From an uncultured Anaerolineales bacterium (GTDB taxonomy: Bacteria; Chloroflexota; Anaerolineae; Anaerolineales; UBA4823): DNA of 37,055 bases. Below are positions 24,789 to 37,055 of the stretch, piece after piece (the first letter of the stretch is position 1; each line of letters begins with the position of its first letter). The stretch is taken from positions 1-37,055 of the forward strand of contig CAIQJJ010000392.1 of NCBI GenBank assembly GCA_903872065.1, read 5' to 3'. The position numbers and the translations under genes are program-made. Below the pieces are notes generated by a model. It did no database searches. It saw nothing but the letters and a program-made list of their open reading frames with translations, and was not told where the DNA came from.

Positions 24789-24827
24789 AGCCAAACCGCG
24801 ACCCGGTGAATGAGGAAAGAGTATTGT

Positions 24828-25736
24828 ATGAATTTTGGACGATGGATGCCGCAGCAAACCGAACAGTGGCGCGAGATGTTGATCAACTGGCTGATCAAAA
24901 TAAGTGGGTATTCAGCAATTGTCTTTGTGACCTTGATTTTCTTCTTCTTGATTCGCGAAAGCCTGCCAGGCTTTAGCCCAGAGACTTTTAGCCGGCTGGC
25001 TGGCTCGCGCTGGTATCCGATTGAACAATATTATGGCCTTGCGCCGCTCATCGCGGGTTCGATCATGGTAACGTTGGGCGCGGCGCTGGTTGCCATCCCC
25101 TTGGGGCTGGGGACAGCGATTTTCATTGCGGAGATCGCGCCGCGCTGGGTGCGCGAAATCTTGAAGCCGCTGGTAGAAATCCTGGCCGGGCTGCCCTCGG
25201 TTGTGCTGGGCTTTTTGGGCATTTTGTCGCTTTCGCCCTGGGTGCGCGAGACGATGAACCTGCCCACCGGCCTGACGGCGTTCAGCGGGTCGCTGTTGTT
25301 GGGGATGACCTCCCTGCCCACCATCGTATCCGTCGCCGAAGATGCGCTGGACGCGGTGCCGCGCAGTTATCGTGACGCCTCGCTGGCGTTGGGCGCGACA
25401 GAATTGCAAACCATCTTTTTGGTCACCTTGCCGGCGGCGCGTTCGGGAGTGTTTACGGCGGTGATGCTCGGCTTAGGCCGCGCCATCGGAGAAACCATCA
25501 TGGTAATGATGGTGACAGGCAACGCGGCGATGATCCCCAACAGCCTGTTTTCGCCGGTGCGCACGATGACCGCCACCATCGCCGCCGAGATGGGGGAAGT
25601 CGCCAAGGGCAGTGAACATTATCATGTCTTGTTTCTGATCGGCCTGACCTTATTTGTGATCTCGCTGCTGGTCAACCTGACCGCATCGAGCGTGATTATG
25701 CGCCAGCAAAAGCGCGCCGAACGGGTGCTCTCATGA
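24828..25736 (+). CDS. pstC: Phosphate ABC transporter permease PstC
   Basis: This 302-aa permease has about six membrane segments, starting at residue 15, and the cytoplasmic coupling (EAA-type) loop EDALDAVPRSYRDASLALGATELQTIFLVTLP at about 173-204 (key residues A-L-G-A and the trailing LP). The GRAIGETIMVMMVTGN segment is typical of PstC. I prefer the ATG at 24828, which has GAGGAAAGA upstream; an ATG at 24810 would add six residues. The 3' end shares ATGA with pstA. It pairs with PstA to form the inner-membrane channel. Confidence 0.95.
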   Translation: MNFGRWMPQQTEQWREMLINWLIKISGYSAIVFVTLIFFFLIRESLPGFSPETFSRLAGSRWYPIEQYYGLAPLIAGSIMVTLGAALVAIPLGLGTAIFIAEIAPRWVREILKPLVEILAGLPSVVLGFLGILSLSPWVRETMNLPTGLTAFSGSLLLGMTSLPTIVSVAEDALDAVPRSYRDASLALGATELQTIFLVTLPAARSGVFTAVMLGLGRAIGETIMVMMVTGNAAMIPNSLFSPVRTMTATIAAEMGEVAKGSEHYHVLFLIGLTLFVISLLVNLTASSVIMRQQKRAERVLS

Positions 25737-26596
25737 ACAAATCTGTGTTTGCCCGCCAGCTCACCCAAAAAATCGGCTACGGGCTGCTGACTTTGCTGAC
25801 GCTGCTGACCGTGCTGCCGATCCTCTATATCATCGGGCGGATTTTGCTGCAAGGAGCGCCGGCGGCGCTATCGTGGGAATTTCTGTTCACCTTTCCGCGC
25901 GATGGCATGAAAGCGGGGGGCATCTGGCCGGCGATCGTTGGCACGATCTACCTGACCCTGGGCACGGCGCTCTTTTCGGTGCCGCTCGGCCTGGGAGCAG
26001 CCATCTACCTTTCCGAATACGCCCCCAACAACCGCTGGACGCGCTTAATCCGGCTGGCGATCATTAACCTGGCGGGCATCCCATCGGTGGTTTATGGACT
26101 GTTTGGCCTGGGTCTGTTTGTTCTATTTCTCAAACTGGGCGTCAGCATCCTGGCCGGCTCGCTGACGCTTTCGATTATGACCCTGCCAGTCATCATCAGC
26201 ACCGCCGAAGAAGCGCTGCGCGCGGTGCCGCAGGCCTTTCGCGTGGTCAGCATCTCGCTTGGAGCGACGAAGTGGCAAACCATCCGGCGGATTGTGCTGC
26301 CCCAGGCGCTGCCGGGCATCTTGACGGGAGTGATTTTGGGATTGGAACGCGCCGCAGGGGAGACGGCGCCGATCCTGTTCACAGCCGCCTCCTTTTTCTT
26401 GCCGCGGCTGCCCGGCTCGCCGTTGGATGCAACCATGGCGCTGCCGTATCATCTCTTTGTCATCTCCACCCAGGTGCCGGGCATGCCCCTGCGCATCCAA
26501 TTTGGCACGGCGCTTGTGCTGCTGGTTTTTGTCTTGAGCATGAACCTGGCAGCCACGGTCATCCGCTCGCGGGCGCGGGCGGCCAGGCAATGGTGA
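25733..26596 (+). CDS. pstA: Phosphate ABC transporter permease PstA
   Basis: This 287-aa permease has six predicted membrane segments. The coupling loop EEALRAVPQAFRVVSISLGAT is followed by KWQTIRRIVLP, and GLERAAGETAPILFTA is the PstA counterpart of the PstC GRAIGET segment. The start codon overlaps the pstC stop (ATGA), so the two subunits are made in equal amounts. The pstB2 gene starts five bases after its stop. Confidence 0.95.
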   Translation: MNKSVFARQLTQKIGYGLLTLLTLLTVLPILYIIGRILLQGAPAALSWEFLFTFPRDGMKAGGIWPAIVGTIYLTLGTALFSVPLGLGAAIYLSEYAPNNRWTRLIRLAIINLAGIPSVVYGLFGLGLFVLFLKLGVSILAGSLTLSIMTLPVIISTAEEALRAVPQAFRVVSISLGATKWQTIRRIVLPQALPGILTGVILGLERAAGETAPILFTAASFFLPRLPGSPLDATMALPYHLFVISTQVPGMPLRIQFGTALVLLVFVLSMNLAATVIRSRARAARQW

Positions 26597-26601
26597 ACCC
26601 A

Positions 26602-27357
26602 ATGAACAAAGTAACCATTGAAAATCTTTCTCTTGAATATTCAGATGGCGCCGAGTCGCTGCGCGGGATCAATCTCAATATCCCGGCCAATGCCATCAGT
26701 GTGCTGTTTGGGCCGGCGGGCGGGGGCAAATCCTCTTTGCTGCGCATCCTGAATCGCTTAAACGATCTGGCGGATGTCAAAACGGTGCGCGGCAAAGTGT
26801 TGATTGATGGGCAAAATATCCTGGAGCCTGGGGTGGATGTGATCGCCCTGCGCCGCAAAGTGGGGATGGTCTTCGCCCGGCCCGTGCCTTTGCCGTTGAG
26901 CATGCGCGCCAACCTGACTTATGGGCTGGAACTGGCCGGGGAACACCGCGCGGCGGTGTTGGCGGAGGCGGTGGAACGCAGTCTGACCCAGGCGGCGCTG
27001 TGGGACGAGGTTAAAGATCGCCTGGATGAACCCGCGGCGGCGCTTTCGGGCGGGCAGCAGCAGCGTTTGTGCCTGGCGCGCGTCCTGGCGCTGCAACCTG
27101 AAATTATTATGCTGGACGAGCCGACTTCGGGCCTGGACCCCATTTCAACCAGCAAGGTGGAGGCTTCGCTGCAAAAGCTGAAAACGCAATACACTATCAT
27201 TCTAGTACCCCATTCTGTCCAGCAAGCAGCCCGCACCGCGGATTACGCCGGGTTCTTCTTGCAAGGAGAGCTGGTGGAGTGGGCGCCGGGCCGAGCGATT
27301 TTTTCCACCCCCCGCGATAAACGCACGGAGGATTACGTAGTAGGACGGTTTGGATAG
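26602..27357 (+). CDS. pstB: Phosphate ABC transporter ATPase PstB (copy 2, divergent)
   Basis: This 251-aa PstB homologue has Walker A GPAGGGKSS (37-45), a normal signature LSGGQ (148-152), Walker B IIMLDEP with D172/E173, and His204 in VPHSVQQA. The Q-loop reads VFARPVPLP, so the Gln that contacts magnesium and the nucleotide is Ala92. Thr in the H-loop stretch VTHNMQ is Pro here. I chose the ATG at 26602 because GGTGA is placed five bases before it; an ATG at 26590 would add MVNP and overlap pstA. It probably joins PstB1 in a heterodimer in which only one ATP site is fully consensus. Confidence 0.92.
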   Translation: MNKVTIENLSLEYSDGAESLRGINLNIPANAISVLFGPAGGGKSSLLRILNRLNDLADVKTVRGKVLIDGQNILEPGVDVIALRRKVGMVFARPVPLPLSMRANLTYGLELAGEHRAAVLAEAVERSLTQAALWDEVKDRLDEPAAALSGGQQQRLCLARVLALQPEIIMLDEPTSGLDPISTSKVEASLQKLKTQYTIILVPHSVQQAARTADYAGFFLQGELVEWAPGRAIFSTPRDKRTEDYVVGRFG

Positions 27358-27368
27358 CAGGAGGAGCT

Positions 27369-28061
27369 ATGACGCGTGAAAATTTCGATCGCGAGATTGC
27401 CCAAATCCAGGATCAGGTCATGTTGATGGGCAATATGGTCAATGAAGCCGTGACACAGTCCGTCGAAGCGCTGCGGCAGCATGACCGGAAGAGCGCCCGC
27501 AAAATCCAGGCGGACGATCAGTTGATCAATGAAAAACGTTATGAAATTGAGTCCAATACGCTGATTCTGATCGCCACGCAGCAGCCCATGGCGCGCGATT
27601 TGCGCTTGCTGGCCGCCATTTTGGAAATCATCACCGAACTGGAACGCATCGGCGATTATGGCAAAGGAATCGCTCGGATTGTCACGCTGATCGAATCCAA
27701 AGACCTGGATATGCCCAAGAGCGAATTTAAACAGATGGCGAAGCTTGGGCTGGAGATGCTGCAAAAAGCCCTGCAAGCCTTCCTGGCGCGGGATGTCGAA
27801 GCTGCCCGCGCGATCCCGGCGCTGGACGATAATGTAGATGATCTCTATAATCGCGTCTACCGCAAGCTGATTAAGCAAATGATGGCGAACCCGGCTTTGA
27901 TTGACGATCTCAACCGCCTGATGTGGGCGGCGCACAACCTGGAGCGCCTCGCTGACCGCGTGACCAATATTTGCGAACGGATTGTTTTTGTGGCGACAGG
28001 TGAAATTAAAGAACTGGATCACTCCAATAACTCTCTGCAAGGCGATGAAAGGAAAGGTTGA
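27369..28061 (+). CDS. phoU: Phosphate-signalling regulator PhoU
   Basis: This 230-aa all-helical protein is made of two PhoU repeats (about 5-105 and 115-215). Metal-binding E/D-x-x-x-D type motifs are visible in ELERIGDYGKGIA (about 91-103) and NLERLADRVTNICE (about 195-208). PhoU restrains the Pst transporter and, where present, the PhoR/PhoB pathway when phosphate is plentiful. AGGAGGAGCT directly before the ATG is the best ribosome site in the window, so expression should be high. It lies 11 bases after pstB2. No phoR/phoB is in the window. Confidence 0.96.
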   Translation: MTRENFDREIAQIQDQVMLMGNMVNEAVTQSVEALRQHDRKSARKIQADDQLINEKRYEIESNTLILIATQQPMARDLRLLAAILEIITELERIGDYGKGIARIVTLIESKDLDMPKSEFKQMAKLGLEMLQKALQAFLARDVEAARAIPALDDNVDDLYNRVYRKLIKQMMANPALIDDLNRLMWAAHNLERLADRVTNICERIVFVATGEIKELDHSNNSLQGDERKG

Positions 28062-28064
28062 GCT

Positions 28065-28469
28065 ATGTGTTCAAGCAAAACGTTGATGTTCCTTGGGGCG
28101 GGGGCGCTCTTCTTGCTCGCGCTGCCCATCGTAGGATTTGGCCTGATCTATATCTGGGGATCGTTCAGCCCGCAGGGTCAGCAAAACTGGGCGGTGATCG
28201 GCGCGATGACCGTCTGCGTCGGTGTGCTGTTAATTGCGGGGGGAATCGCCTTGCTCTGGCTGGCTTCGCGCGCCGCCGCCAGCCAGGCGGCGCAAAATGT
28301 GACGTTGAAAGTAGACTTGCCCGGCAATGTCAGTTTGGATGCGATGAAATGCAAAGCCTGCGGCGGTGTATTAAGCACGGACAATATCCAAATGATCAAC
28401 GGCGCGCCCGTGGTAAGCTGCCCTTATTGCAAAACGACTTATCAGTTGACCGAAGAGCCAAAATGGTGA
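28065..28469 (+). CDS. Small membrane protein with C-terminal zinc-ribbon-like motif
   Basis: This 134-aa protein has two membrane segments (about 7-31 and 43-66), a short linker, then KCKACGG and SCPYCKTTYQL, a CxxC...CxxC pattern likely to bind zinc. I do not recognise the family. It starts three bases after the phoU stop, so it belongs to the phosphate operon by transcription. Its function may instead concern the membrane protein encoded next, which lies 70 bases downstream. Confidence 0.75.
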   Translation: MCSSKTLMFLGAGALFLLALPIVGFGLIYIWGSFSPQGQQNWAVIGAMTVCVGVLLIAGGIALLWLASRAAASQAAQNVTLKVDLPGNVSLDAMKCKACGGVLSTDNIQMINGAPVVSCPYCKTTYQLTEEPKW

Positions 28470-28539: not shown

Positions 28540-30249
28540 ATGCGTAAATTTTTGACGATCGTCTTTCTCCTTGCCCTGGCAGTGGGGTATACTGCCCTTT
28601 TCTCGGCGACCGATCTCGCGCGCGCCGAAACTTACTACTTCCGCCTGACCCAAGAAACGGTCAATATATTTTGGAACAGCGATGGGACGCAGTCGCTGGA
28701 TTATGTGTTAGTCTTCGAGAACAGCCCGACGGCAGACAACCTGGCCTATGTGGATCTGGGTCTGCCCAACGGCAATTTTGATATGGGGACGATCTATGCA
28801 GATGTAGATGGCAAACCCATCACCGATATTACCACCTCTGGCTACCAGGGCAGCGGCTCTGGGGTGGCGCTAGGGTTGGGGAATTACGCGATCAGACCGG
28901 GCAAGGTTGGGCGCGTACATGCGTTTGTCGGCGTCATCCAAAAGGTGTTGTACGAAGACTCCAGCGATAATACCTACGCCAGCGCGGTGTTCGCGCCGGT
29001 CACTTTTGGTTCGCAATATATGTACGGCGAGACCGATCTGACCGTCACCTTCCACCTGCCGCCGGGCATGGCCCCGGAGGAACCCCGCTGGCACGAGGAT
29101 AAAACCGCGGATGGATTCCCCAAGCAGCCGAGCAGCGTATACGATGCCGAAAGCCGGGTCACTTACACCTGGCGCAATGCCCACGCGGACGCATCCAAAC
29201 AATACACCTTTGGCGCATCCTTCCCACTGAAATATGTGCCGGAATCGGCCATTGTGCGGGTAACGTTTATTGATGTGATCCTGGGCGGCATTCTGATGAT
29301 TGTTGGCGCAACATCGGAACTTTGCATCCCGGTACTTGTGATCGGCGGTTTCTTTGGCCTGGTCGGACTCAGCGCCTACAGCGACCGGAAGCGGCGCATG
29401 CAATACCTGCCGCCCAAGATTTCGATCGAGGGGCATGGCATCAAACGCGGCCTGACCGCCATTGAAGCAGCGGTGCTGATGGAACAGCCTCCCGACAGCA
29501 TCTTGACCATGATTTTGTTTGCGCTGATTAAGAAGAACGCTGCCGAAGTGGTCAGCCGTGAGCCGCTGGAAATCAAGAAGATCGAGCCGATGCCTGAAGA
29601 CCTGCGTTACTATGAAAAAGAATTCATCAACGCTTTCGACGAAAAAGGCGCGGCGCGCCGCCGTGCGCTGCAAGATACCATGATTCATCTGATCCGGGCG
29701 GTCTCAGAGAAGATGAAAGGCTTCAGCCGCAAAGAGACTATGGCCTACTACGAGGATATCCGCAAGCGCGCCTGGGCGCAGGTCGAAGCGGCCAATACTC
29801 CTGAAGTGCGCAGCCAGAAATTTGATGAGGTGATGGAATGGACGATGCTGGATCGCGATTTCAACGACCGCACGCGCGATGTCTTCCGTCACCAACCGGT
29901 GTATGTGCCGGTCTGGTGGGGACGCTACGATCCAGGCTACCACCGCCATACCGCCACGCCAAGCTTCAACCGGCCGTCTGCGCCGAGCATCAGCAGCGGA
30001 GGCGGGCTGCCAAGCGTACCGGGGGCCGACTTCGCGGCTTCGATGGTCACAGGGGTGCAGAATTTTGCCGGCAGTGTGATCGGCAATGTGAATGATTTTA
30101 CCAGCCGGGTGACGCAAAGCACGAACCCGGTACCTGTCTCAACCAGCAGCGGGGGCAGCGGCGGCGGTGGGCGCAGCGGCGGAAGCAGCTGCGCCTGTGC
30201 TTGCGCCTGCGCGGGGTGCGCCTGCGCCTGTGCAGGGGGAGGACGTTAA
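28540..30249 (+). CDS. DUF2207-like membrane protein with a (CA)n cysteine tail
   Basis: This 569-aa protein has a signal peptide (1-29, cleavage after ARA), an extracytoplasmic beta-rich domain (about 30-240), and a hydrophobic stretch at 243-280 that is one or two membrane segments, followed by RKRR. A helical domain (about 295-450) and a Ser/Gly/Pro linker come next. The last 19 residues are (CA)4-G-(CA)3-GGGR, with cysteines at 551, 553, 555, 557, 560, 562 and 564. Only one other Cys (262) exists in the whole protein. Both Cys codons and all four Ala codons are mixed, so selection is on the peptide, not on a DNA repeat. The tail is a likely substrate of the radical SAM enzyme two genes downstream. 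GGAGG lies six bases before the ATG. Confidence 0.8.
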   Translation: MRKFLTIVFLLALAVGYTALFSATDLARAETYYFRLTQETVNIFWNSDGTQSLDYVLVFENSPTADNLAYVDLGLPNGNFDMGTIYADVDGKPITDITTSGYQGSGSGVALGLGNYAIRPGKVGRVHAFVGVIQKVLYEDSSDNTYASAVFAPVTFGSQYMYGETDLTVTFHLPPGMAPEEPRWHEDKTADGFPKQPSSVYDAESRVTYTWRNAHADASKQYTFGASFPLKYVPESAIVRVTFIDVILGGILMIVGATSELCIPVLVIGGFFGLVGLSAYSDRKRRMQYLPPKISIEGHGIKRGLTAIEAAVLMEQPPDSILTMILFALIKKNAAEVVSREPLEIKKIEPMPEDLRYYEKEFINAFDEKGAARRRALQDTMIHLIRAVSEKMKGFSRKETMAYYEDIRKRAWAQVEAANTPEVRSQKFDEVMEWTMLDRDFNDRTRDVFRHQPVYVPVWWGRYDPGYHRHTATPSFNRPSAPSISSGGGLPSVPGADFAASMVTGVQNFAGSVIGNVNDFTSRVTQSTNPVPVSTSSGGSGGGGRSGGSSCACACACAGCACACAGGGR

Positions 30250-30280: not shown

Positions 30281-30724
30281 ATGGGTGAGATTCAGATCGA
30301 ACGAGTGACTACTGTTACCGATGAACTGATGGCAGCTTTTGAACGCCTGATGCCGCAGCTTTCCCCGCAGGCGCGGCTGCCGGAAAGGGATACTTTGGCG
30401 CAGATTGTCGCCAGCCCAACGACTACTCTCTATATCGCTCGCGATGCCGGCGGGACGATCACCGGCGCGCTAACGCTGGCGATCTACCGCACCCCCCTGG
30501 CGCTGCATGCCTGGATCGAAGATGTGGTGGTAGATGAGAAGATGCGCGGGCAGGGCATTGGGGCGGCTTTAACGCAGCGCGGTCTCGAACATGCCCGTGC
30601 GGCCGGCGCAAAGAGCGTTAACCTGACTTCGCGGCCGGCGCGTGAAGCCGCCAACCGTTTATATCAAAACCTGGGTTTTGTGCGTTGGGAGACCAACGCC
30701 TACCGTTTCAATTTTAAAGAATAA
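30281..30724 (+). CDS. GNAT-family N-acetyltransferase
   Basis: This 147-aa protein has the acetyl-CoA motif VVVDEKMRGQGIGAAL (about 81-96) and the closing NRLYQNLGFVRWETNAYRF of the RimI-like group. It should transfer an acetyl group to an amine, either a protein or a small molecule. I chose the ATG at 30281, since upstream codons overlap the Cys-tail gene in another frame. Position between the tail protein and the radical SAM enzyme suggests a part in the same modification process, but self-immunity or an unrelated housekeeping role is equally open. Confidence 0.85.
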   Translation: MGEIQIERVTTVTDELMAAFERLMPQLSPQARLPERDTLAQIVASPTTTLYIARDAGGTITGALTLAIYRTPLALHAWIEDVVVDEKMRGQGIGAALTQRGLEHARAAGAKSVNLTSRPAREAANRLYQNLGFVRWETNAYRFNFKE

Positions 30725-30740
30725 AAGCGAAAAAAGGATG

Positions 30741-32258
30741 ATGAACTGGGTAGCGGTGCAGGTCAAAAAAATCATCGGCGCCGGGCGGGCGGCCAGCAGC
30801 AGTTGGCTGCCAGGCCAGGCAGGGCAAACGACCCTGGCGCAGCCGGGCGCGGCGCGCAGCGGCCAGGCGGCAGGCGAGGCCCGGCTCTACCACTATCAAA
30901 TTGAGGCCCCCGGTGAAAAAACGCGCGCCCACTTGCGCATTGACCCCGATGGCAGCGGAGTTTTGTTGATTAACGCCAGCCGCGTGCTGCACCTGAATCC
31001 CACGGCGGCGGCTATGGCCCACTTAGCGCTTGAAAAGACCCCTGAAGCGCAGGCCATCCAGGCCATCCGCGCCGCATACACCGTCAGCCGGCAGCAAGCC
31101 GCCTCCGATTACCAGGCATTCAACCAACAGCTCACTGAACTGCTGCGCCCGGATGGGGCATGCCCGCTGCACGATCTCGATCTTGAGATCGCTGCTCCGT
31201 TTAGCGCCCGCCCCTCCGCCCCGTATCGCATGGATCTGGCGCTCACCTATCGCTGCAATAACGATTGCGCGCACTGCTACAACCCACGTTCGAGCAGCTC
31301 GCGCCGGCCCAACGGCGAGGCCAGTTCGCCTTCTCTGGTCATTGGGACGCAGGCCAACGAGCTAGACACTGCGGATTGGAAGCGGATTCTCGATCAACTT
31401 TGGGCGATTGGGGTGCCGCATATCATCTTCACCGGCGGCGAACCTACCTTGCGCGCCGATCTTGCCGGGTTGATTGCTTATGCCGAGGGTTTAGGACAGA
31501 TCACAGGACTGAATACAAACGCCCGCCGCCTGCACGATTCGCGCTACCTGCAAAGCCTGGTGGATGCCGGCCTGGATCATGTGCAGATCACCGTAGAATC
31601 GCACGATCCGGCCATTCACGATCAGATGGTAGCCTGCCACGGCGCCTGGCAGCAGACTATCGCCGGGCTGCAAAATGCACTGCAAAGCCGGTTGTATGTG
31701 ATGACCAATACCACGCTCTTGCAAGAGAACAGCCCCTACCTGGGCGAGACGCTGGATTTTCTGGCGCGCCTGGGTGTTCCAACCGTGGGGTTGAACGCGC
31801 TGATTTATTCAGGGCGAGGGGCGGTAGTCGGCAGTGGAATCCCGGAAAAAGACCTGCCGCCGCTGTTGGAAGTGGCGCGCGCGAAGACTGAGGCGCAGCG
31901 CCAACGACTGATCTGGTATACACCGACCCAATATTGCCATTTTGACCCAATGCAGCTTGACCTGGGGGTTAAGGGATGCACGGCGGCGCTCTATAATATG
32001 TGCATCGAACCGAATGGCGATGTGCTGCCCTGCCAGTCTTATTACCATGCGCTAGGCAATCTGCTGTGCGACCCGTGGGAAAGTATCTGGCAGCATGATC
32101 TGTCCATCAGCCTGCGCGAGCGACGCTTGATCGAGGCGAAGTGCCAGGATTGTGCGCTGCTCTCCGAATGCGGCGGTGGATGCCCGTTAACCATTGAAAA
32201 AACGATACCTGATTTTAAGACTCGCTGCGCGCCAGACAGCAAAAGGAGTACGGAATGA
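30741..32258 (+). CDS. PqqD-like / radical SAM / SPASM peptide-modifying enzyme
   Basis: This 505-aa enzyme has an N-terminal PqqD-like peptide-recognition domain (about 49-135, with SGVLLINASRVLHLNPTAA). The radical SAM domain has the CxxxCxxC cluster loop C172, C176, C179 (YRCNNDCAHCYN) and GGEP at 232-235. A C-terminal SPASM region has Cys413, 421, 431, 443, 468, 471, 477 and 481 for auxiliary iron-sulfur clusters. This domain order is typical of enzymes that modify ribosomally made peptides, for instance by forming thioether bonds from Cys. The ATG at 30741 follows AAAAAGG; an ATG one codon earlier is possible. Its stop overlaps the next start (ATGA). Confidence 0.93.
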   Translation: MNWVAVQVKKIIGAGRAASSSWLPGQAGQTTLAQPGAARSGQAAGEARLYHYQIEAPGEKTRAHLRIDPDGSGVLLINASRVLHLNPTAAAMAHLALEKTPEAQAIQAIRAAYTVSRQQAASDYQAFNQQLTELLRPDGACPLHDLDLEIAAPFSARPSAPYRMDLALTYRCNNDCAHCYNPRSSSSRRPNGEASSPSLVIGTQANELDTADWKRILDQLWAIGVPHIIFTGGEPTLRADLAGLIAYAEGLGQITGLNTNARRLHDSRYLQSLVDAGLDHVQITVESHDPAIHDQMVACHGAWQQTIAGLQNALQSRLYVMTNTTLLQENSPYLGETLDFLARLGVPTVGLNALIYSGRGAVVGSGIPEKDLPPLLEVARAKTEAQRQRLIWYTPTQYCHFDPMQLDLGVKGCTAALYNMCIEPNGDVLPCQSYYHALGNLLCDPWESIWQHDLSISLRERRLIEAKCQDCALLSECGGGCPLTIEKTIPDFKTRCAPDSKRSTE

Positions 32259-33439
32259 AGACAAAGACATTGAGCCTCAAACAGGCGATTAAACGCTGGT
32301 TTACGCCGCCAGAAGCGCTTACCGCAGGCAGCTATCATTTTCAAGCTCCGCCTGACGCCCCAGCGCCTTATCGCCTGCACCTGCGCCTCGAGCCAGATCG
32401 AAGCGGGGTATTCATTATCAATGCAGCGACCGTGCTGCATCTGAATCCGACGGCGGCTGAATATGCCTATCACCTGGTGCAAAACACGCCGGAGGAAGAG
32501 GTCGCCAGCGCCATCTCCAGGCGCTACCGGATCAATCCCACCCAGGCGCACCAAGATTTTGTCAAGTTCAAGGAACAGATTCAAACGCTGATCAGCACAC
32601 CCGACCTCGATCCGGTCACTTTCCTGGATTTCGACCGCCTTAACCCTTATTCACAAGAGATCTCCGCTCCCTATCGCCTGGACTGCGCGCTCACTTATCG
32701 CCTGCCGGAAGGCGCGGATGCAGCCTACGCCCCTACCAAACAGGTTGACCGCGAACTGGACACCCGTGAGTGGGAAACTATCCTGGACAAGGCCTGGGAG
32801 GCCGGCATTCCGCATGTAGTGTTCACCGGCGGCGAGCCAACCTTGCGCGAGGATTTGTCCGAATTAATCCGCTATGCTGAACAAAAAGGCATGGTTTCGG
32901 GTTTGCTCACCGACGGGCAGCGCCTCGCCGATCCAGAGTACTTGGATATGCTCTTGCAAACCGGCCTGGATCACATTATGCTCAATCTGGATGTAGATAA
33001 TTTAGCCGTCGCGGCGGCAGTCAAAAATACCCTGGCGGCCGATGTGCACCTGGTGGTGCATCTCACGATCACAGCCCAAAACGCGGCGCGGGCCTCGTGG
33101 CAGCTTGAGAAATTACAGCAAAGCGGCATCACCGCGCTGTCACTCAGCGCCGCCGAGGCCAGCTTGCAGCCTGCTCTACAAGCCATGCGTGAACACAGCG
33201 CGGCTCTGGGGATGTCATTGGTCTGGGATCTGCCAGTGCCTTATTCGGCGTTTAACCCGGTCAGTCTTGAAACCGCGGCTGAGGAGCAGCCATCGGGGGC
33301 TGGACATGCCTGGCTCTATGTGGAACCGGATGGGGACGTTTTACCGGCGCAGGGGATCAACCGTGTATTGGGCAACCTGCTGCGCGATCCGTGGAATGCC
33401 ATCTGGCAAAATAGTGAACGGCGCGGCCAGCGTCAATAA
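32255..33439 (+). CDS. Cysteine-free radical SAM paralogue (probable pseudoenzyme) with PqqD-like domain
   Basis: This 394-aa protein is a close paralogue of the upstream enzyme. It keeps the PqqD-like domain (about 27-112, SGVFIINAATVLHLNPTAA) and the barrel landmark VVFTGGEPTLREDL (188-201). The cluster loop aligns without gaps, but Cys, Cys and Cys have become L150, A154 and A157 (YRLPEGADAAYAP). The SPASM part keeps EPDGDVLP and LGNLLRDPW, yet its cysteines are Ala or Arg and the final cysteine-rich segment is missing. Only one Cys (C144) remains. The frame is intact and translationally coupled, so it is not a decaying gene. It probably acts as a non-catalytic partner that binds substrate or stabilises the active enzyme. 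Confidence 0.9.
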   Translation: MKTKTLSLKQAIKRWFTPPEALTAGSYHFQAPPDAPAPYRLHLRLEPDRSGVFIINAATVLHLNPTAAEYAYHLVQNTPEEEVASAISRRYRINPTQAHQDFVKFKEQIQTLISTPDLDPVTFLDFDRLNPYSQEISAPYRLDCALTYRLPEGADAAYAPTKQVDRELDTREWETILDKAWEAGIPHVVFTGGEPTLREDLSELIRYAEQKGMVSGLLTDGQRLADPEYLDMLLQTGLDHIMLNLDVDNLAVAAAVKNTLAADVHLVVHLTITAQNAARASWQLEKLQQSGITALSLSAAEASLQPALQAMREHSAALGMSLVWDLPVPYSAFNPVSLETAAEEQPSGAGHAWLYVEPDGDVLPAQGINRVLGNLLRDPWNAIWQNSERRGQRQ

Positions 33440-33476: not shown

Positions 33477-36400
33477 ATGGATCAAGATAAAAAGCACCTC
33501 TCTATCGTCACAAGGCATCTTGTTTCCCGCTGGCTCATTTTTGTGGGTGTAATCCTGGCCGGGCTGCTGTTTGCGGGCAGCTTTTTGCAAGGCGCGAATG
33601 TGAGTACGGCAGCCGCCAACGCCACCGAGCCGCCGGCGGTGCAGCAACAGCCGGCTGCGACGCTTGCCGACCTGCAAATTGAAACCACAGTCGAAGGGCC
33701 AGATTCCTCAGACAAGGTGCGCCCCGGTGAACCGCTGATTTACACAATTCGCTACACAAACAACCGCAGCACGGCCATTTCGGGGGCGCTGATTAAAGAC
33801 ACCCTGAGCGATGAAACTTTAAAAGGTTTGGGACGACAGCATTTCGACTGCACGTATACCAGCACCCCCTCATTACCCGAATCGTCTTTCACATGCGACG
33901 CGACGGCCATAGGCTTCGAGATGCAGTGGAGCAACTTAACCATCAACGGCAACAGTTCTGGTACGATCGTTTTGCATACCACGGTATACACTAGCCCAGA
34001 ACCCAGCCTGCTGATCGCCAAGCCGATGCTCCTGGGGAACTCAGTTGAGATCAGCGCGCCTGGCGCGGTCGGCAGCATAGACGATACTTCGATCACGATT
34101 GTAGGGCCGCTGTTGAAGCTTGAAAAGGTCGCCGCGCCGGCGATAGTCCTGCCGGGGCATTATTTAGTATATACAATGACTGCTTCCAATGTGGTGCGCG
34201 CCGATTCGATCCGCGCCACCAATGTGGTGATCAGCGATGTGCTGCCAGAACGATCGTATTTTGTGGATGCGACCCATGGCGGCTATTATGATCGCGTCAA
34301 TAATCGCGTGGTGTTTCAATTGAGCGAAGCGCTCGACCCGGGAGAAAAGAGCGTCGTCTCCTTCCGCGTCCTGGTAAACCCGAACACCCAGTCCAATCTC
34401 TCGATCACCAATGCAAAAGCAGAATATGTGATCCGAGCGCAGGAAATAAAAATCAAAGACGTGCTGGGGAGCAAATCAATCACGGTCAAAGTGGGCAAGG
34501 TGCTGCAAAAAACCGCTGTCGCCGCGACGATGAAAGGCGCGATCCCCTACATTTTTCCAAGTGAAGAGGTCACCTATACCATCACAGTGTATAACCCCTA
34601 TACTGATACCTTAACCGGGATTGCTGTCACTGATACCCTGCCGGGCAACCCTGATCCCTTCATTTATGTCCGCATGGCAGATACGAACGCCCCGCCGACA
34701 ATTCTGGAGGAGGGACGCAAACTGGCCTGGACGCTTGAAAGCATCCCGGTAGGCGGCTTTACCACGCGCTCGTTTGTTGTACGCATCCCCCGCAACACGA
34801 TCATCCCGGATAACAAAACGTCTTACGATTACAAAAACATTCTCGACGCATTTCACCCCAAGGTGAAGTTTTTCACCGAAAAAGGTCTGGCAACCGTCAG
34901 AGTCAGAGCGGCCCTGGTGATCACCAAAGCGGTATCTATTGCCAGGCCGCAGCCCGGCCAAACCATCATCTATACCGTCACGCTCAACAATCAAGGCGTC
35001 TATCCCCTGTATGGCCTGCGGATTACCGATACCATCGCCATTGACCCCGATCGAGGCAGTTACTTCTTGCGAATGCTCAACGGGCCAGATCCGCTGCTCG
35101 ATTACAACAAAAATCCGATGGTGTGGGATGGAATAGACTTGAACAGCCGCCAGGCGGCGCAACTGATCTTTGAGGTTTACCCGGATGGACACTGGCTGGA
35201 CAAATATTGCAACCGGGTAGACGCCTCTGAACGCGGCGATGGGACAACCACGCCGACGGATATTCCCAGCATTACGAACAAAGCCTGTATTGTGATCGAT
35301 TCGCCAGTAAAGTTGATCAAAACGGTTGAGCCAGATGAGATCTTCCCTGGCGATACAGTGGAATACACGATCAGCATTTACAACGACACCCTGCAAGACA
35401 CCTGGACAATTGATCGGATTGTAGACAGCCTGCCGCCCGGATTCAACCAGGTGAATGTGGGCAACCCGGCAGTGATCGAGCTCAGCCCACCGGAGGATAT
35501 TCTCCCCGGCAGCCAGATTGACCTGCCATTCAGCGTGGTGGTCTCGCCGGAGGAATTGAACTGCGCCGACTTGCCCAAAACCTATTGGAACCCGGCCAAG
35601 GCGATCGCGGTGCATTTCACCGCGCCGATGACCATCACCGGTTATAATCCGTCCGCGTTGGCGCCGCTGAAGATCAACCCGCATGTGGTCTCGGACCTGA
35701 TCCCGCAGCGCCAGGCGGTGCTGCCCGGCTCTTATGTCACTTACACCTTAAGCCTGTTCAACGGCTCGTCTGTCGCGGCGCAAAATGCCACTGTAAGCGT
35801 CAATCTACCCGCCGATGTGATTTTCGTTAAAATGATCGGCGATAATGATCCAAATGTGGACTATGTCGCGACAGTTGAGGGCACTCTGGTTACGTGGGAT
35901 GGGGTCAATATTGCCCCGGTCAGCGAACTGCAAATCTATTTCCAGGTGCAAATTGCAGAAAATGCATCTTATGGCGTCAAGACGCCAACCTTGCAAGCTT
36001 CCGCAACGGGCGTCTGCTTTGGCAAGTTGGCTACGGGCGACGATCCGTTAGGCACCGGCAAGATCAATGTGGTTGAAGAAGTCGTCATCTTAAGCAAAAA
36101 GCACCTGATGAAAACTGTGCCGGTTGACTCTTTGGTGGATTACACGCTCAGCATCCGCAATATTGACGCTTACTCTTACAGAGTCCAACTGGTCACAGAC
36201 ACGCTCCCGACTGGTTTTACTTTTGTGGATATGCTTGTCGGGCCACAGCCGGTCCAGCAAATCGGCAATCAGTTAGTCTGGCAAAATGTTGATGTAGGCG
36301 GCAAAGCGACTGTCACCTGGAAAATCCGCCTGAAGTCGGCCACTTTGTTCAATTACTACTTGAACTATTTGAGCGCTTACAGCCGTGAAACGCCGATCAA

Positions 36401-37055
36401 AACCACCTCTGATTCAGATCTCAAAGAGGCGCTAGATGATCTACGCGGCGGTGTGTTGGTCTACCCGGTATTGGCCGTGATTAAAGAAAGCGGGGTGACA
36501 GAAACGGTGGCTGGAACGGTTGTCCCGTACACGATCACCCTGATCAATCAGAGTGATGTCAGCTATAACCAGGTAATGGTCACAGACACCCTCCCGACTG
36601 GCTTCACGTTTGTCAAGGTACACCCCGGCACTTCCGCGCCATCCTTCGTCAGCAGCGATAAAGCAATCGTTAGTTGGAAAGGATTGACCCTGCCAAAAAG
36701 CACCGGCAAGATCGTCCTGATCATAGATGCTAAGATTGACAGGAGTACGCCGCCAGGCGCTTACTTCAATAATGTCGAGGCCAGCAGCCCAACGGGGAGC
36801 ATCCCCAACATTGGGCCAACAGCACTTGTCTCCGTCACGCCGGCGCCGCTGCCGAAAGCTTCCGCCTCGATGGAAGTCCGCCCGACGGTAGTGGCTCAAG
36901 GCGGGGTGGTGACGTATACCATCACCCTGGCGCACAGTTATGACGCCGCCATCGGTCAGATCACCATCACAGATACCCTGCCGGCCGGTTTCAGCTATTT
37001 GAAAACGCTCACCGGCCCGGCGCCGGCGGCTGAAGGGAGGCAGCCAGTCTGGCGC
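33477..37055 (+). CDS. Large DUF11-repeat surface protein, 3' partial
   Basis: The frame is open for 1193 codons to the right edge. The N-terminus has charged residues and a hydrophobic segment (about 19-37) that serves as signal or anchor. From residue 80 on there are about nine DUF11-type beta-sandwich modules of about 130 residues. Each opens with a V-x-PG-x-x-V-x-YTI-type strand (for example near 33715, 34145, 34555, 34940, 35330, 35705, 36110, 36505 and 36890) and most carry a DTLPxGF motif. Such proteins form long stalks on the cell surface, often in adhesins or S-layer material. AAGGAG seven bases before the ATG is a strong ribosome site. It lies 37 bases after the radical SAM pair, so it is probably in the same operon. 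Confidence 0.9.
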   Translation, partial: MDQDKKHLSIVTRHLVSRWLIFVGVILAGLLFAGSFLQGANVSTAAANATEPPAVQQQPAATLADLQIETTVEGPDSSDKVRPGEPLIYTIRYTNNRSTAISGALIKDTLSDETLKGLGRQHFDCTYTSTPSLPESSFTCDATAIGFEMQWSNLTINGNSSGTIVLHTTVYTSPEPSLLIAKPMLLGNSVEISAPGAVGSIDDTSITIVGPLLKLEKVAAPAIVLPGHYLVYTMTASNVVRADSIRATNVVISDVLPERSYFVDATHGGYYDRVNNRVVFQLSEALDPGEKSVVSFRVLVNPNTQSNLSITNAKAEYVIRAQEIKIKDVLGSKSITVKVGKVLQKTAVAATMKGAIPYIFPSEEVTYTITVYNPYTDTLTGIAVTDTLPGNPDPFIYVRMADTNAPPTILEEGRKLAWTLESIPVGGFTTRSFVVRIPRNTIIPDNKTSYDYKNILDAFHPKVKFFTEKGLATVRVRAALVITKAVSIARPQPGQTIIYTVTLNNQGVYPLYGLRITDTIAIDPDRGSYFLRMLNGPDPLLDYNKNPMVWDGIDLNSRQAAQLIFEVYPDGHWLDKYCNRVDASERGDGTTTPTDIPSITNKACIVIDSPVKLIKTVEPDEIFPGDTVEYTISIYNDTLQDTWTIDRIVDSLPPGFNQVNVGNPAVIELSPPEDILPGSQIDLPFSVVVSPEELNCADLPKTYWNPAKAIAVHFTAPMTITGYNPSALAPLKINPHVVSDLIPQRQAVLPGSYVTYTLSLFNGSSVAAQNATVSVNLPADVIFVKMIGDNDPNVDYVATVEGTLVTWDGVNIAPVSELQIYFQVQIAENASYGVKTPTLQASATGVCFGKLATGDDPLGTGKINVVEEVVILSKKHLMKTVPVDSLVDYTLSIRNIDAYSYRVQLVTDTLPTGFTFVDMLVGPQPVQQIGNQLVWQNVDVGGKATVTWKIRLKSATLFNYYLNYLSAYSRETPIKTTSDSDLKEALDDLRGGVLVYPVLAVIKESGVTETVAGTVVPYTITLINQSDVSYNQVMVTDTLPTGFTFVKVHPGTSAPSFVSSDKAIVSWKGLTLPKSTGKIVLIIDAKIDRSTPPGAYFNNVEASSPTGSIPNIGPTALVSVTPAPLPKASASMEVRPTVVAQGGVVTYTITLAHSYDAAIGQITITDTLPAGFSYLKTLTGPAPAAEGRQPVWR

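Follow-up and report, generated by a model that had tools for sequence, protein, structure and literature searches.

A cysteine-free radical SAM/SPASM paralogue conserved beside an active-type enzyme and a membrane protein with a Cys-Ala tail in Chloroflexota

Introduction

Radical SAM homologues without cluster cysteines are known beside RiPP maturases; they are named in NCBIfam/InterPro and have been noted in Bacteroidales. For the pseudo-radical SAM proteins of Bacteroidales RiPP clusters a partnership with an active radical SAM enzyme has been proposed, and no function has been assigned to them experimentally (PMC10352776). The family TIGR04150 (pseudo_rSAM_GG; IPR026418) comprises Cys-less homologues encoded with an active radical SAM maturase and a precursor, and TIGR04347 (pseudo_SAM_Halo) is a second named family of the pseudo-SAM/SPASM kind. 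Non-catalytic proteins also serve these enzymes, as PqqD is a trans-acting RRE that brings the precursor to the SPASM enzyme PqqE (PMC8326336). The maturases SkfB and SuiB have an RRE at the N-terminus (PMC8326336), as has the protein described here.

The window analysed here, the whole stretch of 37,055 nucleotides from an uncultured Anaerolineales bacterium, encodes a protein (B) that an earlier note had singled out as a probable selected pseudoenzyme, namely a paralogue of the radical SAM enzyme encoded just upstream (A) in which the cluster cysteines are gone.

Gene B and its upstream paralogue

Gene A (30738..32258, forward strand, as are all genes below) encodes an active-type radical SAM/SPASM enzyme of 506 amino acids with a fused PqqD-like domain, a CX3CX2C loop (31248-31286) and the SPASM motif CX2CX5CX3C. 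Gene B (32255..33439) encodes 394 amino acids with a PqqD-like (RRE) domain, a degenerate radical SAM barrel and a truncated, Cys-free SPASM remnant. The two genes are linked (32241..32258) by an ATGA overlap of the A stop codon (TGA, 32256-32258) with the ATG start codon of B (32255-32257), and the Shine-Dalgarno-like AAAAGGAG, 6 nt upstream of that start, is a good ribosome-binding site.

In pairwise alignment B, a paralogue of A, is 39% identical to it. The loop YRCNNDCAHCYNP of A (31248-31286) is aligned with YRLPEGADAAYAP of B (32696-32734), the former [4Fe-4S] cluster loop, so that B has no CX3CX2C; GGEP and EPDGDVLP are retained, the C-terminal CX2CX5CX3C is missing and every SPASM cysteine is lost. 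The open reading frames and the alignment thus bear out most of what the earlier note had read from this pair: the paralogy and the lost cluster cysteines, the retained GGEP, PqqD-like domain and EPDGDVLP, the absent C-terminal Cys segment, the single Cys in 394 residues and the ATGA overlap. Its position-for-position match of the two loops holds for the A/B pair of the window and not family-wide, where the loop differs in sequence and, to a small extent, in length. Its statement that the SPASM cysteines had become Ala or Arg is right for C432 (Ala); C422 has become Tyr, C400 Ser, C414 is lost within an altered stretch, and the Arg replaces C443, which lies outside the conserved SPASM Cys positions. 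The sole remaining Cys, C144, was considered as a residual cluster ligand and rejected, the corresponding residue being Leu in A enzymes (L167, a non-Cys position) and Ile in some orthologues.

Pfam matches B to Radical_SAM (PF04055, E=7e-12, above the cut-off) and to PqqD (PF05402, E=2.6e-5, 24.9 bits against a cut-off of 23.4), and leaves the SPASM match (PF13186, 18.0 bits) under its cut-off of 21.5. By fold and sequence homology B is a radical SAM protein; it has neither the CX3CX2C of the catalytic cluster nor the cysteine set of the SPASM auxiliary clusters.

Both genes belong to a module whose order in most relatives is a small zinc-ribbon membrane protein, a DUF2207-like protein, A and B, often behind pst-phoU. 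In the window, PhoU (27369..28061) is followed by the first module gene, for a small membrane protein whose C-terminal part bears zinc-ribbon-like CX2C pairs (28065..28469), and by the DUF2207-like gene. Here a GNAT acetyltransferase gene (30281..30724) is inserted between the DUF2207-like gene and A; no GNAT gene occupies this place in the related module loci that were examined. That pst-phoU (24810-28061) immediately precedes the module in the window, as in many relatives, hints at a link to phosphate status. Beyond B, a gene for a long DUF11-repeat surface protein (33477-37055) starts after 37 nt and runs off the window; it was not seen at this place in relatives whose downstream genes were read.

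Of the 80 best B loci in public genomes, 67 have a Cys-bearing A upstream and co-oriented with B, and none has A on the opposite strand; the remaining 13 are fragments without A, several of which end near the gene. The spacing of A and B ranges from overlap to 3.8 kb, with unrelated genes between them in some loci, and in one genome (G081) both are present on separate contigs. Over 101 related genomes B co-occurs with A (p=6e-18, not corrected for shared ancestry).

Conservation and selection of the B family

Homologues of B, with 42-67% identity, were found in 57 of the 101 related genomes. In the first 29 orthologues that were aligned the cluster loop is lacking without exception, and CX3CX2C occurs at 0 of 112 loci with B homologues (some loci counted twice). 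Among these 112 are the 80 best B loci from a search across bacterial and archaeal genomes, all of them in Chloroflexota and all without the motif; Pelolinea submarina, Bellilinea caldifistulae and Anaerolinea thermolimosa are among the hosts. In the tree the Cys-free B proteins form one clade with support 100/100 on a long stem branch. As to their origin, they group with the enzymes of lineages that have no B and not with A1, the type of A found with B, at moderate support (81/95).

Pairwise dN/dS values for B, calculated by the Nei-Gojobori method with a custom script, are mostly 0.05-0.13, about the same as or lower than those of A in the same pairs; in the few B pairs with 0.2-0.3, A is likewise raised where it can be compared. 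As judged from these sequences, neutral decay of B is excluded and the gene is under purifying selection. The earlier note had held that its reading would fail if close relatives bore a Cys-containing version at this place and B alone were degenerate and neutrally evolving. No Cys-bearing version was found at this place among the 112 loci and the dN/dS values are low, so B is not a lone degenerate copy. The related prediction of a conserved Cys-free clade always adjoining the active form held for the clade, and for the neighbourhood in most cases; family f9, described below, is an exception to "always".

These results also bear on the simplest alternative, that B is a functionless duplicate undergoing decay. 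The loss of all catalytic cysteines and of the C-terminal segment, and the long stem branch, are what decay might leave. A reading frame that is intact, one clade that spans many families, the low dN/dS and the kept operon place are not, and we regard this explanation as refuted by conservation and dN/dS, with next to no probability left to it. The absence of Cys-bearing relatives, the single clade and the dN/dS values support a selected pseudoenzyme.

The membrane protein with a Cys-Ala tail

The candidate substrate is encoded by the second gene of the module (28540..30249), a DUF2207-like membrane protein of 569 amino acids. Its layout is a signal peptide, a beta-sandwich, a TM segment, DRKRR, a helical/winged domain, a conserved helix, a Gly/Ser linker and a Cys-Ala tail, CACACACAGCACACAGGGR (30190..30246), which is the candidate modification site. 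The tail form (CA)nG(CA)3GGGR is almost invariant in the protein and not in the DNA. The DUF2207-like proteins are about 50% identical overall, yet they end in CACACACAGCACACAGGGR or close variants. One 19-residue tail is encoded by 83 DNA versions among 96 sequences, which indicates that selection acts on the protein. Since the signal peptide is followed by a single hydrophobic stretch with the positively charged DRKRR behind it, the positive-inside rule places the tail in the cytoplasm.

Pfam gives a weak match of the C-terminal domain to PF20990 (DUF2207) in one member (E=0.0022) and no family for most members; Foldseek returned just low-coverage matches for the beta-sandwich (M1 aminopeptidase, OST), which are uninformative.

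Of the 101 genomes, 53 have both tail and B, 4 have B only, 6 the tail only and 38 neither (odds ratio 84, Fisher p=6e-17); tail and A co-occur likewise (p=1e-17), both values being uncorrected for shared ancestry. Several of the exceptions are incomplete genomes. Within the class Anaerolineae the tail is common; elsewhere it is rare, with 1 genome of another class among 301 sampled from the phylum. What was observed of a possible RiPP-type system is an RRE-bearing enzyme of the maturase type and a linked, co-occurring, near-invariant Cys-rich tail as its putative substrate.

Lineages without B and a second pseudoenzyme

Six families of the class (f16, f17, f20, f21, f27 and f28) have A and the tail with no strong B match genome-wide, and a fragment of one genome from another class also has A and the tail with no B; B is therefore not universally needed. 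The A enzymes of the two kinds of lineage differ in their SPASM region, a Cys after CGGGC being found in just 4 of 91 A enzymes from the lineage with A and B, against 11 of 12 loci (some counted twice) from lineages without B. The difference counts in favour of the role proposed for B below. Against this, the loss of the late SPASM Cys follows one clade and could have happened once, for reasons that have nothing to do with B.

In family f9 the usual A is gone, B directly follows the tail gene, and an active enzyme of a different type (A2) is encoded elsewhere, 130 kb off in one genome (G058). Such loci, together with the RRE conserved in B and the families that have enzyme and tail without B, would fit a stand-alone adaptor or regulator whose RRE binds the DUF2207-like protein, modified or still unmodified, and which controls what becomes of it outside any enzyme complex with A. 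Against such an adaptor stand the position of A, directly ahead of B and co-oriented with it in 67 of the 80 loci, the ATGA coupling in the window and the fact that the presence of B tracks that of A; we consider it unlikely. The f9 arrangement, in which B is still beside the tail gene despite the missing A, counts also in favour of the substrate-presenting role that we prefer for B.

In four other families (f6, f11, f35 and f64) the partner of an A2 enzyme is a different pseudoenzyme, B2, in which CX3CX2C and GGEP are lost and the four SPASM cysteines of CX2CX5CX3C are kept. B and B2 may share a single origin, which is not rejected (p-AU 0.18); B2 is on a very long branch. At the B2 loci (L055, L057, L058, L155-L157, L165 and L173) the gene lies beside that of A2, and it is the A2 enzyme that often has a Cys-rich C-terminal extension, GGGCSGCSGSCGT.

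The tail varies somewhat in these surroundings. Its layout is (CA)3G(CA)4 in the A2 lineage and (CA)4G(CA)3 in the A1 lineage, and at two loci (L155, L157) the DUF2207-like gene is doubled in tandem, both copies encoding a Cys-Ala tail. In genome G079 a shortened tail, SSCACACAGGGR, is encoded by an apparently frame-shifted gene that adjoins a divergent B (L062, 5771-8597), and a second divergent B lies near an A2 enzyme (L061).

Predicted fold and conserved residues

The AF2 model of B, built from a 26-sequence alignment, has a pLDDT of 84 and a pTM of 0.83. Its top structural matches are the RiPP maturases SkfB (Z 22.4 over 312 residues), PqqE (21.7) and SuiB (20.9). In this model the fold of RiPP maturases is retained in B, together with the PqqD-like recognition domain. 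Positions of the RRE and of the GGEP region are conserved alike in A and B. W253, H269, V328, P329, W353 and Y355 are conserved in B specifically, and four residues invariant in A (Q283, T285, E287 and N324) are changed. Judged by the general radical SAM fold, these four probably lie near the SAM site.

The near-invariance of GGEP and the B-specific invariant residues leave a small place for the idea that B is a catalyst of another kind, which might use bound SAM or a bound nucleotide in non-radical chemistry. Against it, the four A-invariant residues presumed to surround the SAM site are not kept, GGEP also shapes the barrel, and B2, the second pseudo family, has lost GGEP as well. We think this improbable, and more so than the adaptor.

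Proposed role of B

Taking the evidence together, we consider it probable that B is a pseudoenzyme kept by selection and that it serves, most likely as a scaffold or as a subunit presenting the substrate, in the action of A on the tail. The data above show the Cys loss, the single clade, the purifying selection, the predicted fold, the linkage and co-occurrence and the near-constant tail; the complex of A and B, the substrate and the chemistry are the parts of this reading that we infer. B would have descended from a duplicated radical SAM/SPASM peptide maturase. Because all cluster ligands are lost, it should be unable to form the 5'-deoxyadenosyl radical by the known route. It would assemble with A, to which it is adjacent and, in the window, translationally coupled. 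Through its RRE, B would help to bind or present the cytoplasmic C-terminal part of the DUF2207-like protein, the conserved helix serving as the recognition segment, and A would modify the Cys-Ala tail, plausibly with thioether bonds of the sactionine type. The RRE-radical SAM-SPASM architecture with a Cys-rich target suggests thioether chemistry by analogy with sactipeptide systems.

More tentatively, A and B could form a heteromeric maturase that is dedicated to cross-linking the Cys-Ala tail of the membrane protein, in place of a small peptide, and in which the cluster-free B is the essential substrate-presenting subunit. The missing late SPASM Cys of A would then reflect a division of labour, and pseudoenzymes would perhaps have been recruited twice, as B and as B2. 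We hold this fuller version to be possible, at rather less than even chances.

Comparison with known systems

Like the proteins of TIGR04150, B is a Cys-less homologue encoded with an active enzyme and a candidate substrate. It differs from them in score (19.3 bits against a cut-off of 250, so that it is not a member), in the candidate substrate, a 569-residue membrane protein, and in the host, which belongs to Chloroflexota. Nor does B fall into TIGR04347, which it resembles as a pseudo-SAM/SPASM protein (cut-off 525; B reaches 50.8 bits, a score that active families also attain), or among PqqE proteins (TIGR02109, 74.1 bits, with 110.1 for A, against a cut-off of 381). SkfB, PqqE and SuiB share with B the radical SAM barrel and a SPASM/twitch remnant, but they hold the catalytic cluster for which B has no ligands. 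PqqD is, as B would be, a non-catalytic protein with the same domain; B adds a whole degenerate enzyme, and A has an RRE of its own. To the DUF2207 proteins (PF20990) the tail protein is related by the weak match of one member, and it ends in Cys-Ala repeats. A literature search found no paper that joins radical SAM with DUF2207, nor one that joins it with SPASM and pseudoenzyme together.

As far as the sequences tell, what is new is a pseudoenzyme family outside the cut-offs of TIGR04150 and TIGR04347 that has a defined and unusual candidate substrate, and the inclusion of the A-B pair and a DUF2207-like membrane protein in one conserved module. The family has a wide distribution, is clearly under selection and is tied to that candidate substrate. 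It also comes with natural controls, in the lineages that have enzyme and tail without a pseudoenzyme and in B2, where the SPASM site is partly kept. If the proposed role is true, a Cys-Ala tail on a membrane protein would extend RiPP-like chemistry past small peptides.
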